Shown piece after piece: positions 2,017-19,561 of a DNA stretch of 64,000 nucleotides; the first letter of the stretch is position 1; every line of letters begins with the position of its first letter. This DNA comes from Verrucomicrobiia bacterium. GTDB taxonomy: Bacteria; Verrucomicrobiota; Verrucomicrobiia; Limisphaerales; CAIMTB01. The DNA is taken from contig JAHCBA010000004.1 in assembly GCA_019634625.1 (NCBI GenBank), positions 124,001-188,000 on the forward strand. Reading direction: 5' to 3'. The position numbers were made by a program, and so were the translations under genes. The notes beneath the pieces were generated by a model. The model was not told where the DNA came from. It ran no database searches and worked only from the letters and a program-made list of their open reading frames with translations.

Positions 2017-5000
2017 ATGCATCAGCGGCCATTCAGCCGGATACCCACCCTCGAGCGCCTGACCCGCCCCGCCACACTGCCGTCCGCCTTCCTCTCCCTC
2101 CTCCTCGGCGCATCCCTCGCCGCTTCCGAACCGTTTCCCGCGGCCGGCCTCCTCCCCAAGGACGAAACCGGCGCCACCCGCTTCCTCCAACAATACCCCG
2201 ACTACGACGGCCGGGGCGTCATTGTCGCCATCTTCGATACCGGCGTGGATCCCGGTGCCCCCGGCCTCCATCTCACTCCTGACGGACGCCCCAAGATTCT
2301 CGATGTCGTCGATGCCACCGGCAGCGGCGACGTGGACTTGTCCACCGTCCGCACCGCCAGCGAAGGCGTGCTCATGGGCCTCTCCGGGCGGCCGTTGACC
2401 ATTCCCCCGGACTGGGCCAACCCCACCGGTGAGTTCCGCCTCGGCCTCAAACGCGCCGACGAACTGTTCCCGCCCGCCCTCTCCCAACGCCTCCGACGCC
2501 ACCGCCGCGAACGCTGGGATGAGGAACAACACCTCCTCGAAATCCACCTCCGCCGCGAACTCGCCGCCTGGGATGCCGCCCACCCCAACCCCTCCCCCGC
2601 CCAGGCCAGGGACCGCGAAGAACATGCCGCCCGCCTCGAACAGTGGCGCGATCTCCAGGACAACTTCCAGGATCCCGGCCCCGTCTTCGATTGCGTCGTC
2701 TTCCACGACGGCCACGTCTGGCGCGCCGTCGTCGATACCGACGAGGACGGCGATCTCTCCAACGAAAAGGCCCTGGCCAGCTTCCGGCTCGAACGTCAGT
2801 TCGGTTCCTTCAGCGCCGAGTCCCAGCTCAACTACGCCGTCAATATCCACGACCACGGCCGGCGCCTGTCCATCGTCGTGGACAGCGGCATGCACGGCAC
2901 TCATGTCGCCGGCATCGTGGCCGCCCACTTCCCCGGTCAGCCCGAACTCGACGGCATCGCCCCCGGCGCCCAGATCGTCTCGGTCAAAATCGGCGACACC
3001 CGCCTCGACAGCATGGAGACCTCCACCGGGTTCGAACGCGGCCTCGCCGTCGTCCGCGAGTGGCAGTGCGATGTCATCAACCTCAGCTACGGCGAACCCA
3101 CCACCCTCCCCAACCGCGGACGCCTCATCGAACTCCTCGCCGAACGGGTGGACGAAGACGGCATCGTATTCGTCGCCTCCGCCGGCAACAGCGGCCCCGC
3201 CCTGTCCACCGCCGGCGCCCCCGGCGGCACCACCTCCAGCCTCATCGGTGTCGGCGCCTACGTCTCCCCCGCCATGATGGCCGCCGCCTATTCAATGCGG
3301 CATCAACCCCGGGAAACCCAGTACACCTTCTCCTCCCGCGGACCCACCTACGATGGCGACCTCGGCGTCGATGTCTCCGCCCCGGGCGGCGCCATCTCGC
3401 CCGTCCCCAACTGGACCCTCCAGCGTGGGCAGCTCGCCAACGGCACCTCCATGGCCGCACCCAGTGTCGCCGGTGCTGTCGCCCTCCTCCTCTCCGGTCT
3501 CAAGGCCGAAGCCGTCCCCACCTCCCCCATCGCCATCCGCCGTGCCCTCGAACACTCCGCCCGCCCCGTTCCCGACCTCTCGGTCTTCGATCAGGGACGC
3601 GGCCTCATCCAGGTGAACCGCGCCTTCCCGGTCGCCAAAGCCCTCGCCCACCCCCCCGAATCCACCCCCCGCTACGAGGTCTCCCTTCCCGACCGCCAGG
3701 CCGCCCGCGGCGTGTACCTTCGCGAACCCCACGAATCCTCCAGCCCTCTCGTCACCCAGGTCCGCGTCCGCCCTGTCTTCCCCAAATCCACCCCACACCC
3801 CCACCGGGTCCAATTCGAGGGACGCTTCCGCCTCGAATCGTCCGTCCCCTGGATCGAACTCCCGTCCCACCTCGTGCTCTACCACGGAGGTCGCATCTTC
3901 GAGATCCGCGTGGACCCCACCGCACTCCCCCCGGGCGCCCATTACGGCGAAATCCAGGCCCGCGAAGTCCCCGACCGCGGCGCCGGCCCGGCCTTCAGCA
4001 TCCCCGTCACCGTCATCCGTCCCCACGCCCTCGAGGACACCGATGCCACCGCCTGGTCGGAGAGAATCGAACTGGCCCCCGCCCATCTCGAACGTCGGTT
4101 CTTCACGATCCCCCATGACGCCACCCGCGCCGAACTTCACGTCCGCGCCGATCCCCTCGAGTCATCCCGGCGCCTGGTCGTTCACACCCTCCAGCTCGTT
4201 CCCGGCCGCCCCTACACCGACACCGGCACCCAACGGTACCTGACCCTCGCATCCCACGGAGAAGAGCGGCTCCACTTCCCCGTCGTCGGCGGACGCACCC
4301 TCGAACTCTGCCTCGGCCAGGCCTGGTCCAGCCTGGGCGAGGGCGCCTTCGAGTTCTCCCTCCAGTTCCGCGGGGTCGTTCCCGCCGAATCCGCCGTGTC
4401 CATGGGCTCCGGCGATCGCGCCCGCCGCGTCGAAGTCGCCGCCTCCATCGCCGACGCCCGCATCGCTCCCGCCGCCCGCCTCACCACCCGCCGTCGCTGG
4501 GTCCACCCGTCCGCCTCCCACATCACCGCCCTCCCCGAGGATCGCGACACCCTCCCCGGCCGCCGACGGGTCCACGAAAAGATTCTCGAATACCCCTTCA
4601 CCCTCGATGCCGACAGCACCGTGACGCCCCGCTTCCCGGCCCTCAATGCCCGCCTCTACGAAGCGGAATACGGGTCCCAACTCTGGGCCGTCTTCGATGC
4701 CGCCAAACGCCTCGTCGTCGTCGATGACGGATGGGACCCGGGTCCCGTCCGGCTCCCCAAAGGCTCCTACCTCCTCCGGTTCCACCTCCGTCACGACCGG
4801 ACCGAGGCGCTTCAGCATCTCGAATCCCTTCCCCTCGCCCTCGATCTCCAACTCGCCTCGCCCCTCACGCTCGACGCCTACACCGATGCCGACCAGGCCC
4901 TGGCCCGCGGATCACGCCTCCAACCCCGCACCCTGAACCGCGGCGACCACGTCGCCTTCTGGCTCGCCACCCCCGACGCCGATGCCCTCGCCTCGCGTGC

Positions 5001-5901
5001 CGCCCCCGGCGACCTGCTGCTGGGCACCCTGCGCTACGAATCCAACCCGGGAGCCCTCGACTACCCCCTCTCTCTCGCCGTCGGCCCCGCGCCGTCCGCC
5101 CCGTCCCCCGGCAGGACGAAGCCGTCCATCCCACCCGCCGATACTCCCCCCGAAGATCCCCTCGCCAAGGCGCGACGCGACTTCGAAATCTCGCTCCTGG
5201 ATCGCCTGAAGGGACCCCGCGACGCCGACGCCTTCCAGTCCCTCGCCGCCGAACTCCTCGAGAAATATCCCGACGCCCTCGAAATCCGCACCCGCCAACT
5301 CCATCGCCTCGACGATTCCGACCGTTCCTCCCGCGCCTGCGATGTCATCGCCGCCGCGGATGCCATCATCGACCGCATCGACCGCACCGCCCTCGCCGCC
5401 CATCTCGGCACCCGCCGCGATCCGGAGAACGACACCCATCCCGCCCAAACCCGCGCCTCCGCCGCACAACAGGAAGCCCTCCTCGACGCCCTGTTCCGAA
5501 AGGCCCGCGTCCTCGCCGGTCCCGACGGCCTCCAACCGGCCGTCCCGCTGCCCGCGCCCCAGGCCTCGGTTGAAAAGGCGCCCACGGCTGCGCACCACGA
5601 CGGCGAGTGGGACGCCGGGGCCGCCGACCCCCTGTTCGAGGAAACCTGCGTCGAACTCAGCCGCTGGGTCGATCTCACCCAGGGCCGTTACCTCGACCTT
5701 CACCTTCACCGCGAATGGCGTGCCGGTCGTCCCGCCGTCGTCCTCCGCCACCTGACCCGGCGCCTGCGCGACGATCCCACCGACCGTTCCCTGCACGAGC
5801 GGCGCATCCGCGTCCTCGATCGCCTCGGCTGGTCCTCCTGGGCCGAACACGAACGCGCCTGGCTCCACGCCCGCTTCCCCGCCGACTACCCCCCCTTCTG
5901 A
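2017..5901 (+). CDS. Secreted tripeptidyl-peptidase II-like subtilase (S8A)
   Basis: Serine exo/endopeptidase of the subtilisin clan. A signal-peptide-like segment at about residues 20-36 (PSAFLSLLLGASLAAS) suggests export, unlike the cytosolic eukaryotic enzyme. The N-terminus (LLPKDETGATRFL, PDYDGRGV) follows eukaryotic TPPII closely. The catalytic triad is visible: D74 in AIFDTGVDPGAPG, H293 in HGTHVAG, S478 in NGTSMAAPSVAG. As in TPPII, a long insertion separates Asp from His, and a large C-terminal region of about 750 residues follows the protease domain. The total of 1294 residues is close to human TPPII (about 1250). The last 250 residues are helix-prone and end in a repeat-like segment. 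It stands alone between repeat-rich spacers; substrate and assembly state are not shown by the sequence. Confidence 0.92.
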   Translation: MHQRPFSRIPTLERLTRPATLPSAFLSLLLGASLAASEPFPAAGLLPKDETGATRFLQQYPDYDGRGVIVAIFDTGVDPGAPGLHLTPDGRPKILDVVDATGSGDVDLSTVRTASEGVLMGLSGRPLTIPPDWANPTGEFRLGLKRADELFPPALSQRLRRHRRERWDEEQHLLEIHLRRELAAWDAAHPNPSPAQARDREEHAARLEQWRDLQDNFQDPGPVFDCVVFHDGHVWRAVVDTDEDGDLSNEKALASFRLERQFGSFSAESQLNYAVNIHDHGRRLSIVVDSGMHGTHVAGIVAAHFPGQPELDGIAPGAQIVSVKIGDTRLDSMETSTGFERGLAVVREWQCDVINLSYGEPTTLPNRGRLIELLAERVDEDGIVFVASAGNSGPALSTAGAPGGTTSSLIGVGAYVSPAMMAAAYSMRHQPRETQYTFSSRGPTYDGDLGVDVSAPGGAISPVPNWTLQRGQLANGTSMAAPSVAGAVALLLSGLKAEAVPTSPIAIRRALEHSARPVPDLSVFDQGRGLIQVNRAFPVAKALAHPPESTPRYEVSLPDRQAARGVYLREPHESSSPLVTQVRVRPVFPKSTPHPHRVQFEGRFRLESSVPWIELPSHLVLYHGGRIFEIRVDPTALPPGAHYGEIQAREVPDRGAGPAFSIPVTVIRPHALEDTDATAWSERIELAPAHLERRFFTIPHDATRAELHVRADPLESSRRLVVHTLQLVPGRPYTDTGTQRYLTLASHGEERLHFPVVGGRTLELCLGQAWSSLGEGAFEFSLQFRGVVPAESAVSMGSGDRARRVEVAASIADARIAPAARLTTRRRWVHPSASHITALPEDRDTLPGRRRVHEKILEYPFTLDADSTVTPRFPALNARLYEAEYGSQLWAVFDAAKRLVVVDDGWDPGPVRLPKGSYLLRFHLRHDRTEALQHLESLPLALDLQLASPLTLDAYTDADQALARGSRLQPRTLNRGDHVAFWLATPDADALASRAAPGDLLLGTLRYESNPGALDYPLSLAVGPAPSAPSPGRTKPSIPPADTPPEDPLAKARRDFEISLLDRLKGPRDADAFQSLAAELLEKYPDALEIRTRQLHRLDDSDRSSRACDVIAAADAIIDRIDRTALAAHLGTRRDPENDTHPAQTRASAAQQEALLDALFRKARVLAGPDGLQPAVPLPAPQASVEKAPTAAHHDGEWDAGAADPLFEETCVELSRWVDLTQGRYLDLHLHREWRAGRPAVVLRHLTRRLRDDPTDRSLHERRIRVLDRLGWSSWAEHERAWLHARFPADYPPF

Positions 5902-6140: not shown

Positions 6141-6200
6141 CCAAATAGCCGGAAACTTCGTGCATATGCACGAAGTTTGAGAGCATTTCGAGCCCGCCGC
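6141..6200 (+). repeat. Solo copy of the TGCATATGCAC module with a 26-bp perfect palindrome
   Basis: Positions 6153-6178 are a perfect 26-bp palindrome centred on TGCATATGCA and flanked by AAACTTCG/CGAAGTTT. The surrounding 60 bases align without gaps to 18361-18420 upstream of the PaaX-like gene (CCAAATnGCC, GAAACTT, core, then CATTTC and AGCCC). It sits between the 3' ends of two convergent genes, so it is not an obvious promoter operator for either. Confidence 0.8.
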
Positions 6201-6220: not shown

Positions 6221-6380
6221 GTGCATCCCCAAGTTGTCGGTGAGGAGGCAGCCAATCGGAGGGACGAGCTCCGCGAGTCCTCATCCCAACGCACCCCATC
6301 GTTGCGGCCTCGTGGAACCCGGCCCTCCGAGGCGATGCCTCGCGAAGTTCGCGCCTCGACCCACAACTCCGGGATGCACG
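6221..6380 (+). repeat. Complete ~160-bp imperfect inverted-repeat element (copy 1)
   Basis: The ends are GTGCATCCCCAAGTTGTCGG and, on the other strand, GTGCATCCCGGAGTTGTGGG: 20-bp terminal arms with three mismatches. The interior holds GGAGGGACGAGCTCCGCGAG and GAGGCGATGCCTCGCGAAG. A second complete copy in the opposite orientation lies at 19403-19561. No open frame is carried and no target-site duplication was recognised. The format resembles a MITE or a large REP-type element. Confidence 0.85.
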
Positions 6381-6407: not shown

Positions 6408-7196
6408 TCACGGGCTCCGTGCACCTTCGCCATGCGCCCCCCCCTCACTCCCCGTCCCACCCGATTGGATCAACCCTTCGAGGCGCCGCCGTAATTGCCC
6501 GAGTTCCCGCGACTTGAAGTGCCGTCGCGTCGCGTCCAGCGCCCCAATCACCTCCCGCAACACCGCTTCAAACTCCGGCGCCGGAATCGAACCGGATAAC
6601 CCCGGCGCAACCCCGGGCGCCACCGCCGTCGGGCCCGCGGACATCTCCAACCCCCAATGCTCGCTCACCCTCAGCGCCTCCTCGAATCGCGCCATCACCC
6701 GGTTCAAGGCGCCCTCGCCCTCCTCCCTCTCCGCAACCTCCCCCTCCCGCGGTAGCGCACGAAACTCCCTCAGACACTCCCGCAATTGCGCCTCCCGCTC
6801 CCGCCACGCCCTGGCCCTCCGCCTCGCCCCCATCCCCCGCTCGATCAGGGCAAGCAGCGTCCCGGGTTCCGGCGGCTTCACCAGATACCCAACCACCGGC
6901 GGACCCACCGACTGCATCGCCGTCTCCAGCGTCGGCCGCCCCGTCAGCAGAATGATCGGCACCTCCGGCGCCGCCGCCCGCAGATGCTCCACCAACGCCA
7001 ACCCATCGTTCCCCGGCATGTGAATGTCCGAAATCAACAGATCGTAAGGGCGCTCGCTCAACGCCGTCACCGCCCCGCTCACATCCTTCACCCATCGGCA
7101 CTCGTACCCGTGATGCCGCAGCACCCGCTCCAGGGTCGCCCCAAACAATGCATCGTCCTCCGCCACCAGGATCCAACCCTTGCTTCTCCCTTCCAT
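6408..7196 (-). CDS. Response regulator with a non-DNA-binding C-terminal region
   Basis: CheY-like receiver at residues 8-125 of a 262-residue protein. The acidic pair is D14/D15, the phospho-acceptor is D57 in DLLISDIHMPGNDG, and the conserved Lys is K107 in YLVKPPEP. The last ~140 residues are charged, probably helical, and match no output domain I recognise; no HTH, GGDEF or HD motif is visible. The start at MEGRSKGW follows an AGGAGG 4 bases upstream, which decides it over the start 21 codons earlier. No partner kinase is adjacent; the nearest is the hybrid kinase at 11198. It may act through protein contacts. Confidence 0.85.
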   Translation of the reverse strand: MEGRSKGWILVAEDDALFGATLERVLRHHGYECRWVKDVSGAVTALSERPYDLLISDIHMPGNDGLALVEHLRAAAPEVPIILLTGRPTLETAMQSVGPPVVGYLVKPPEPGTLLALIERGMGARRRARAWREREAQLRECLREFRALPREGEVAEREEGEGALNRVMARFEEALRVSEHWGLEMSAGPTAVAPGVAPGLSGSIPAPEFEAVLREVIGALDATRRHFKSRELGQLRRRLEGLIQSGGTGSEGGAHGEGARSP

Positions 7197-7274
7197 GATG
7201 CCTCCTACCGTACCCACCCCGCCGCCCCTGCCAATGGCAAACCCCGACAGCCCAGGCAACGGGGCAGCCCCATG

Positions 7275-18252: not shown

Positions 18253-18299
18253 ACGCCCCCCTCCCTCCTCCACAACCTCCCCCCTTAAATCACCCTATT

Positions 18300-18540
18300 C
18301 TCCGCACACATGCACGAATTTTACGACCATTTAACAGCCACACCCAAGTCTCCCCGCCCTCCAAATCGCCAGAAACTTTGTGCATAGGCACGATTATCAG
18401 GACCATTTCCAGCCCACCGCCCCGCGCCATAATCGACCCAATCGCCGTGCATGTGCACAGGCTTTTCGGCCTTGAAACGGTTGGCCTCCGTTCCCCTGGA
18501 TCAACGTAACTGTCGTGCATATGCATGAGAATTAAGTCGA
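18300..18540 (+). promoter_or_regulatory. Four-unit array of the TGCATATGCAC module upstream of the PaaX-like gene
   Basis: Four degenerate copies have cores at 18305-18316, 18379-18391, 18447-18458 (GTGCATGTGCAC) and 18515-18526 (GTGCATATGCAT), spaced 76, 67 and 68 bases. In three of four, the core is followed by GA and, 17 bases after the core, by ATTT and then an AGCC. The same order and spacing occur in the solo copy at 6141-6200. The last unit ends about 30 bases before the regulator start. Use as an operator array for autoregulation is an inference. Confidence 0.6.
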
Positions 18541-18571
18541 TTTAGCCGCCGTGCCGGAGCAGGTTCGGTCC

Positions 18572-19369
18572 ATGCACCCGAAGACCGAGGAACTCCTCTA
18601 CATCCTCCTCTGGACCTGCGAATCCCTCTCCCAACCAACCGTCCGCAACCTGACCGAATCCTTCGAAAGCTGGGCCTATCGCAGCGGCCTGCTGCGCCAG
18701 ATCCGCGAACTCGAACACAAGGGCCTCATCGAAAGGACCAGCCCTCCCCCCCAGCGCGGCAAACGCGTGGACCGCCTGGTCCGGTTGACCGAGTCCGGCC
18801 GTCTGCACGCCCTCCATGGACGCGATCCCGAGGCCCGCTGGAACCGCGAATGGGACGGCCAATGGCGCCTGGTGCTCTACGATCTCCCCGCCGTCGATGG
18901 CACCCGCCGCAATCGCGTTCGTAACGCCCTTCGCAGCCGCGGTTTCGGCTGGCTCCAGGATAGCGTCTGGATCTCGCCCGATCCTGTCACCGAGCTCGTT
19001 GCCTCCCTCGACGAAAACCCCTCGGATGTCGAATCCCTCCTCTTCCTCGAAGCCCGCCCGGCCGGCGGCGAATCCGATCGCGACATTGTCGCCGGCGCCT
19101 GGAACTTCGAAGCCATCCACCAGCGCTACACCCGATACCTCAAGGTCCTCGCCCGCCTCCCCGCCAAATGGTCGGGATCGGAATCGGACGCCGAACACCT
19201 CCGGCAATGGCTCGCTCTCGAACGTGCCGCCTGGTCCGAAGCCGTCCGCAGCGACCCCCTGCTGCCCCGACGCCTCTGGCCCGAGGGCTATCCTGCCCCT
19301 CAAGCCCTCCGCCAGCGCCTCGAACGCCTCGCCGTCGCCGGCGAACGCATGCGCTCCTTCCGCCCCTGA
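18572..19369 (+). CDS. PaaX-like transcriptional regulator
   Basis: Predicted DNA-binding regulator of 265 residues from the ATG at 18572; a GTG 21 bases earlier is possible. The N-terminal ~75 residues are a winged helix (LLYILLWTCESLSQPTVRNL, then LIERTSPPP and VRLTESGRLHAL). The central part, WRLVLYDLPAVDGTRRNRVR with LRSRGFGWLQDSVWISP, is the Cas2-like ferredoxin fold of the PaaX family. The C-terminal helical domain matches PaaX_C in length. Classical PaaX represses phenylacetate catabolism, but no paa genes are near, so the ligand and targets are unknown. It is preceded by the four-unit TGCATATGCAC array and followed after 33 bases by an inverted-repeat element. Confidence 0.8.
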   Translation: MHPKTEELLYILLWTCESLSQPTVRNLTESFESWAYRSGLLRQIRELEHKGLIERTSPPPQRGKRVDRLVRLTESGRLHALHGRDPEARWNREWDGQWRLVLYDLPAVDGTRRNRVRNALRSRGFGWLQDSVWISPDPVTELVASLDENPSDVESLLFLEARPAGGESDRDIVAGAWNFEAIHQRYTRYLKVLARLPAKWSGSESDAEHLRQWLALERAAWSEAVRSDPLLPRRLWPEGYPAPQALRQRLERLAVAGERMRSFRP

Positions 19370-19402: not shown

Positions 19403-19561
19403 GTGCATCCCGAAGTTGTGGGGCGAGCTGCGGACTTCACCCGGCATCGCTTCGGAGGGCCGGGTTCCACGAGGCCGCAACGGTGTGGAGCGTTGGGCTG
19501 AGGACTCGCGGAGATCGTCCCTCCGATTCGCTGCCTCCTCACCCACAACTCTGGGATGCAC
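19403..19561 (-). repeat. Complete ~160-bp imperfect inverted-repeat element (copy 2)
   Basis: Opposite orientation to the copy at 6221-6380. Read on the - strand the two align end to end without large gaps, with terminal GTGCATCCC arms conserved and the core GGAGGGACGATCTCCGCGAG differing by one base. It begins 33 bases after the PaaX-like stop codon and is followed by a GATTAC tract. Confidence 0.85.

Follow-up and report, generated by a model that had tools for sequence, protein, structure and literature searches.

What does a long, perfect palindrome do between two genes that both end beside it? The question is raised by positions 6141-6200 of a 64,000-nucleotide stretch of a Verrucomicrobiia genome (the window; contig JAHCBA010000004.1, positions 124,001 to 188,000). 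The left neighbor, on the plus strand (2017-5901; Pfam TPPII and Peptidase_S8), encodes a bacterial tripeptidyl-peptidase-II-like subtilase with TPPII Ig-like and galactose-binding-like domains, and the right neighbor, on the minus strand (6408-7259; Pfam Response_reg), encodes a response-regulator receiver protein; the convergent arrangement described in a first-pass annotation is thus confirmed. The ungapped match to 18361-18420 reported there was also recovered, with 47 of 60 positions identical, as was a perfect palindrome with 13-bp arms. This unstranded palindrome, AAACTTCGTGCATATGCACGAAGTTT at 6153-6178 (arms AAACTTCGTGCAT and ATGCACGAAGTTT), is the longest loop-less perfect palindrome of the window, the runner-up having an arm of 7, and its arm exceeds the longest one (11) in 100 shuffles of the window in two-base blocks.

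Around this 13+13 core extends a palindromic module of about 46 bp, which occupies 48 alignment columns (6142-6189, unstranded) and has 18 of 24 symmetric pairs; pairing is unbroken for the first 13 and then mismatched. The module has a position weight matrix (PWM) score of 69.2 and a covariance model match of E=2.8e-11. Folded as single-stranded DNA, it reaches -12.1 kcal/mol (z -5.1), which no shuffle equals. No Rfam family matched anywhere in the window, and base composition was not conserved at the positions inspected outside the 48 columns. A separate repeat of about 159 bp with inverted ends (GTGCATCCC...GGGATGCAC; eight copies in 464 kb, of which two are in the window, at 6221-6379 and 19403-19561) adjoins the solo module and also stands right after the PaaX-like gene described below; flank matches suggest its presence near several other modules.

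The module is typical of its family, but the family itself is unusual. Allowing up to three mismatches, the window contains 11 matches to the pattern CGTGCATATGCACG (1.87 expected); allowing up to two, the whole genome contains 239 matches to GTGCATATGCAC, compared with 57 to the same pattern reversed; and AANNNNNGTGCNNNNGCACNNNNNTT occurs 86 times in the whole genome (1 for the control). Using a PWM built from 40 modules (alignment A1) and a module definition of a score above 20, we found at least 108 modules in 62 clusters, comprising 43 solos and 19 arrays, in the window and 55 loci of the same genome; these loci were picked by exact core or model match from among the matches listed, and 108 is therefore a lower bound for the genome. 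Scores are sharply gapped: across 1.04 Mb, none falls in the range from 12 to 25, and 400 kb from other hand-picked places in the genome held no module above a score of 6. Read outwards from its center, the module is AAATnGnCnnnAAnnnnCGTGCAT plus the mirror image, conserved at positions 1-7, 12-13, 16, 18, and 20-22, such that near-invariant positions stand among free ones.

The window also holds an array of four unstranded modules: a degenerate module 1 (18286-18333; 13/24 pairs, PWM score 40.7), module 2 (18362-18409; 13/24, 53.2), module 3 (18429-18476; 12/24, 33.2), and module 4 (18497-18544; 17/24, 51.5). Two of the four rank among the three lowest PWM scores. Several arrays at different loci have a unit of about 123 bp in common. 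Many contigs of this genome end at or near modules (e.g., C10, C11, C14, C20, C28, C38, and C39, and further C45, C47, C54, C55, C59, C68, and C84), and one array unit is common to the contig ends L109/L026 and L124/L114, as it is, by module sequence, to L036/L040; the real arrays are therefore probably longer than assembled. A third repeat, GCGCATCTC...CTCGTACTCAGCCCGAAG, lies beside a module at L017 (about 4280), L115 (about 13570), L025, and L041, which suggests that several kinds of intergenic repeat are combined in mosaics.

All 62 clusters are located outside called genes. Both neighbors were called for 46 clusters, and the other 16 were dropped. Of the 46, 26 follow a stop codon by at most 60 bp, where 18% would be expected (p=5e-9), and only 6 are that close to a start codon, where the expectation is 22%; these expectations derive from intergenic blocks up to 400 bp from a gene, and all intergenic blocks give 10% and 12%, respectively. 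The setting is convergent in 9 clusters, codirectional in 28, and divergent in 9, and the location of 6142-6189 between convergent genes suits the family. As to whether the sites prefer promoters or gene ends, a point raised in the first-pass annotation, gene ends are favored in the loci of this genome, and promoters of a coherent regulon are not the sole sites. The 30 neighbor proteins scanned against Pfam are as diverse as a tRNA synthetase and a nickel insertion protein, with 6 lacking a match; they share no common function, no gene family recurs near modules, and the coherent regulon was accordingly rejected. An uptake-sequence idea was likewise dropped: 464 kb contained 8 half-sites scoring above 15, compared with 0 in shuffles, and the window's five modules could supply all 8. 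Two of the three roles first offered for the site, a remote target site and a mobile repeat, fit these data, and both may be true. The third, a small-RNA promoter, found no support in the base composition at the positions inspected around the modules or in the Rfam comparison of the window.

The conservation pattern and the scarcity of intermediate scores are what would be seen if the palindromes were fixed binding sites of a PaaX-like protein, of regulator or nucleoid type, that arose in place and were kept by selection rather than by movement, and the array directly upstream of the PaaX-like gene agrees with this. We nevertheless consider such an origin unlikely, because the sites are mostly 3' of genes, with no coherence among the 30 neighbor proteins scanned, and because of two further observations given below, namely, a downstream palindrome in related units that has no evident regulatory reason and the stop of homology near palindrome edges.

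Solos and arrays differ in how their arms pair. Counted at the eight non-conserved positions, the 33 interior solos pair in 195 of 264 cells, compared with 129.9 (sd 6.4) after shuffling (74% versus 49%); the array modules, one taken from each of the 19 arrays, pair in 55 of 152 free cells (56.1 shuffled), and the 10 solos at contig ends, which may belong to broken arrays, pair in 29 of 80 (31.4 shuffled). Therefore, interior solos tend to be hairpins, while array modules are symmetric at the conserved positions only. The window solo, in which 4 of the 8 non-conserved positions pair, is intermediate between the two, and for array modules 1 to 4 of the window, DNA hairpin z values range from -0.1 to -1.2. 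The contrast first drawn between a perfect solo and imperfect array copies thus extends to the modules examined genome-wide, but the arrays are not independent cases: several have the unit of about 123 bp in common, and part of the asymmetry was inherited once from an ancestral unit.

Unbroken stems reach 31 bp, and the DNA hairpin of one locus (L022) reaches -29.8 kcal/mol. Together with the position just behind stop codons, such stems would be in keeping with transcription terminators or mRNA 3' hairpins whose arms were matched by selection or by template switching during replication. Beyond the first mismatch, pairing drops towards chance (75/141 versus 62.6, sd 4.6, in 40 modules); pairing is therefore partly tract-like, as arm-copying would yield, and excerpts of PMC8794818 describe arm-copying tracts produced by replication template switching. 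We see little chance that this accounts for the family, since it leaves the conservation at the tip, the unpaired arrays, and the bracketed gene (see below) unexplained, and no long T-run was seen by eye after the modules inspected.

The window array stops 28 bp before a plus-strand gene (18572-19369), 12 kb from the solo module, and module 4 is centered about 52 bp before its ATG. The product, which starts MHPKTEELL, is a PaaX-like protein (PaaX_M, E=3.7e-18) with a Cas2-like central domain marked by the stretch WRxVxFDxP...R...GFGxLQxSVW. It scores 62.9 bits against the PaaX equivalog TIGR02277 (cutoff, 264.55) and 19.6 bits (E=8e-4) against Cas2 TIGR01573 (cutoff, 24.5), below the cutoff in both cases. 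Residues R99, D104, R113, Q129, and S131 are invariant in 29 aligned clade sequences, and D104 is presumably the counterpart of a Cas2 active-site residue. At D104, Q129, and S131, profile alignment places E, A, and S in Escherichia coli PaaX (8a39) and T, R, and G in 3kfw. Single-sequence structure prediction gave a mean pLDDT of 36.

Within the genus, the relatives found are only 34 to 36% identical; one of them is a paralog in the same genome (C24, 36%), with no module in the 20 kb around it. In the order, a homolog at E≤1e-20 is present in 34 of 196 genomes, the source genome included, with up to four copies per genome (in G028, four copies on four contigs); many of these are 50 to 57% identical, and some matches are partial. 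A viral origin was considered and rejected, as the viral contigs yielded one core-pattern stretch and no viral relative of the protein was found.

Many of the loci in the order have a palindrome 50 to 65 bp upstream of the start codon, the position that module 4 occupies in the window; the one at L191 reads CCAAACTTTGTCGCATATGCGACAAAGTTTGG, and some have GCATATGC and AAACTT..AAGTTT in common with the module. A second palindrome that matches the first often lies just after the stop codon, giving a palindrome-gene-palindrome unit of about 0.9 kb. We collected 63 such units from the order and the phylum, of which 61 were scored after dropping 2 at locus edges. Left-right similarity exceeds the best shuffle (19 of 32) in 44 of the 61 units, mostly in the form of two palindromes, and fails to do so in 17. 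Measured against cross-unit pairs (mean 17.9, largest 29), 27 units exceed the 99th percentile of 26 and the other 34 do not. Taken singly, the upstream palindrome is above the 99th percentile of shuffles in 44 of 61 units and the downstream palindrome in 24 of 61, the latter count being lowered because the scored stretch starts at the stop codon and clips palindromes close to it. Most scored loci are thus bracketed, and the matched ends differ between genomes.

Among the 27 phylum loci found after the idea had formed, 5 have both palindromes (p≤0.05) and 19 have at least one. Bracketing is clear at 32 to 47% protein identity in L282, L283, L309, L295, and L288 and was not seen at L302, L303, and L305. 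The window gene has no right-hand palindrome, its left-right match (18 of 32) being at shuffle level, and this copy may therefore be a plain autoregulator. By domain content the clade genes look like PaaX regulators, yet many across the phylum resemble mobile units with ends of their own. No description of a PaaX/Cas2-like gene with bracketing palindromes was found in the literature, subscription papers and preprints being outside the scope of the search.

Evidence bearing on movement comes from comparing units between families. In five pairs (L187/L272, L182/L272, L182/L245, L182/L187, and L187/L194), DNA homology runs from 68 to 71 bp before the ATG to 24 to 42 bp after the stop codon and ends near the outer palindrome edges, as it would for a mobile unit. 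Nucleotide identity in these pairs is 78 to 84%; for comparison, the window subtilase and that of a congener are 46% identical as proteins. The five come from the 60 most similar pairs, most of which show one edge or the gene only. Homology of L187/L245 goes about 20 bp past the upstream edge, L245 and L272 (in G101 and G139) have the right flank in common, and L188 and L191 share about 1.1 kb upstream. Of 24 units whose own family is represented by a further unit, 16 are closest to a unit of a different family. One presumed target had no empty copy in three genomes, and no target duplication was seen. In L188 and L191, which belong to two families, a DprA-like gene (read from its translation) lies upstream of the unit and may be cargo or a common target.

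In G139 and G101 (L239-L269), several solos are embedded in a longer repeat, the outer arms of which are CCATGAACCGG/CCGGTTCATGG, and in L260 and L265, a different palindrome takes the place of the solo. This hairpin repeat was tried as an insertion target and rejected, as there were no empty copies. In the same two genomes, comparison by eye shows many solos with two kinds of arm, one resembling the left end of the unit and the other the right end; such mixed arms would fit a recombination remnant or a circle junction.

Scattered palindromes accompany the gene at the level of genome groups. A relaxed core pattern gave 590 forward matches versus 200 for the control in 24 gene-bearing genomes and 71 versus 80 in nine genomes without the gene (Mann-Whitney p=1.4e-4 for the excess and 0.009 for the ratio); the counts include palindromes at the gene itself, and the pattern misses cores like those of L181 or the source genome. 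Two genomes were placed in neither group: the source genome (6 versus 2) and G002 (7 versus 2), whose relative is only 34% identical. The excess is small in G134 (22/19), G051 (14/12), G085 (13/11), G191 (11/8), and G168 and G170 (5/3 each). One best-match locus per genome was inspected for a palindrome, defined by 14 or more symmetric pairs out of 20. Of the 21 gene-bearing genomes, 13 had one away from the gene, 2 had the gene's own, and 6 had none; of 7 gene-less genomes, one had a palindrome, and that one, at L219, resembles the parS consensus.

Some solos carry the core of the unit in the same genome (L228/L196, L233/L204, and L224/L184); a solo in G128 reads AACGATCGTT beside AACAATTGTT at the gene of G128, and TTCCGTACGGAA is found in G055. 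For lower-GC genomes, in which the longest ORFs stand in for called genes, the 39 palindromes divide into 11 within an ORF and 28 outside; of the latter, 16 follow the 3' end of an ORF by no more than 60 bp. A model search of 57 other genomes, four of them congeners, found no module in the congeners and one weak match in G020 (E=0.003), and genome contigs of other species (genome_contigs), from which the source genome may be excluded, gave 14 single stretches with PWM scores of -7 to 42, at most one each.

The position at gene 3' ends, the repeat mosaics, and the tandem arrays are also traits of REP and BIME sequences, as far as the excerpts of PMC3733652 go, and the source genome has 30 Y1_Tnp matches compared with 3 to 8 in four congeners. 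A REP-type repeat moved in trans by a Y1 (RAYT-like) transposase, with the PaaX-like gene as a passenger or repressor, would account for these points. It is nonetheless improbable in our view: none of the 20 Y1 loci fetched out of 30 is flanked by a module with a score above 20, the one match being 10.8 (L090), the module ends lack GTAG or CGTC, and the gene that is bracketed is the PaaX-like one. A RAYT as the direct partner was therefore rejected. A 308-amino-acid Y1-transposase-like gene is itself repeated, at L086 (3139-4118) and 14 similar loci (including L087, L088, L090-L099, L102, and L103), in copies about 90 to 93% identical; homology extends little beyond the gene, and the flanks, compared by eye, are unrelated except for weakly similar upstream stretches.

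Taken together, we are confident that the solo site belongs with the palindromes of the PaaX/Cas2-like gene, and, judging from sequence, 6142-6189 is probably a dispersed cognate palindrome of a mobile-type PaaX/Cas2-like unit. In the mechanism that we propose, the gene would elsewhere form a compact palindrome-gene-palindrome unit that spreads between lineages. The protein would act as a dimer, combining an N-terminal DNA-binding part with a Cas2-like dimer fold, and would recognize a two-fold symmetric site; bound at the upstream end, the dimer would repress its own gene, and on both ends, probably as extruded or single-stranded hairpins, it would aid the copying of the unit or of a bare palindrome elsewhere. 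Solo palindromes would then be remnants or non-autonomous copies, which the host would tolerate shortly after stop codons. That the protein binds the site, does so as a dimer, regulates its own gene, acts as a catalyst, and causes movement is in each case inferred from sequence features of the gene and its surroundings.

A direct part for the protein in spreading the palindromes is plausible, though we lean somewhat against it. More tentative still is the full proposal of a new class of minimal mobile element, consisting of a PaaX/Cas2-like mobilizing enzyme, two cognate palindromes, and shed solos that spread as hairpins. We place the mobilizing enzyme slightly lower than we otherwise would for two reasons: (i) the serine and an acidic residue (glutamate) persist in E. 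coli PaaX, and (ii) 27 rather than 44 of the 61 units surpass cross-unit similarity. Should the protein move or copy the palindromes, the Cas2-like fold would gain a role in DNA mobility and a scattered hairpin family would have an identified partner, in a compact system of one gene and one site. An actual mobilizing enzyme would be a Cas2-fold counterpart of RAYT/REP and might offer a clue to the way in which Cas2-like proteins deal with mobile DNA in non-CRISPR settings.

Several known systems offer points of comparison. PaaX regulators (E. coli PaaX 8a39 and 3kfw) have the same PaaX_M and PaaX_C domains, and homologs have a palindrome before the gene, but the clade gene has a patchy distribution, is often present in several copies, and usually stands between palindromes, with D104, Q129, and S131 invariant. 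Compared with Cas2, to which the match is weak, the clade protein has extra N- and C-terminal parts. IS200/IS605 elements (PMC6006769) are likewise small single-gene units with hairpin-forming ends, but their protein is different, and in our units the palindromes at both ends match each other. The closest likeness is to REP/BIME/REPIN sequences and their RAYTs (REPtrons), whose features we took from excerpts of PMC3733652, PMC12306157, and PMC3116915: short multicopy intergenic palindromes near gene 3' ends, solo or arrayed, found in few genomes only, and a protein gene flanked by palindromes. The module family is intergenic, present in many copies, and near gene 3' ends, as REPs in general are. 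REP superfamilies have a GTAG or CGTC tetranucleotide at one palindrome end, according to the part of PMC3733652 consulted, whereas the module consensus ends AAAT/ATTT (alignment A1, 40 modules), and the palindrome-flanked RAYT of the GTAG superfamily was not found at the 20 of 30 Y1 loci. The modules are, moreover, nearly loop-less and show conservation at the tip as well as at spaced positions, unlike REPs, and the bracketed gene encodes a PaaX/Cas2-like protein instead of a Y1 transposase. On the best reading, the unit would work like REP/RAYT but with an unrelated protein.
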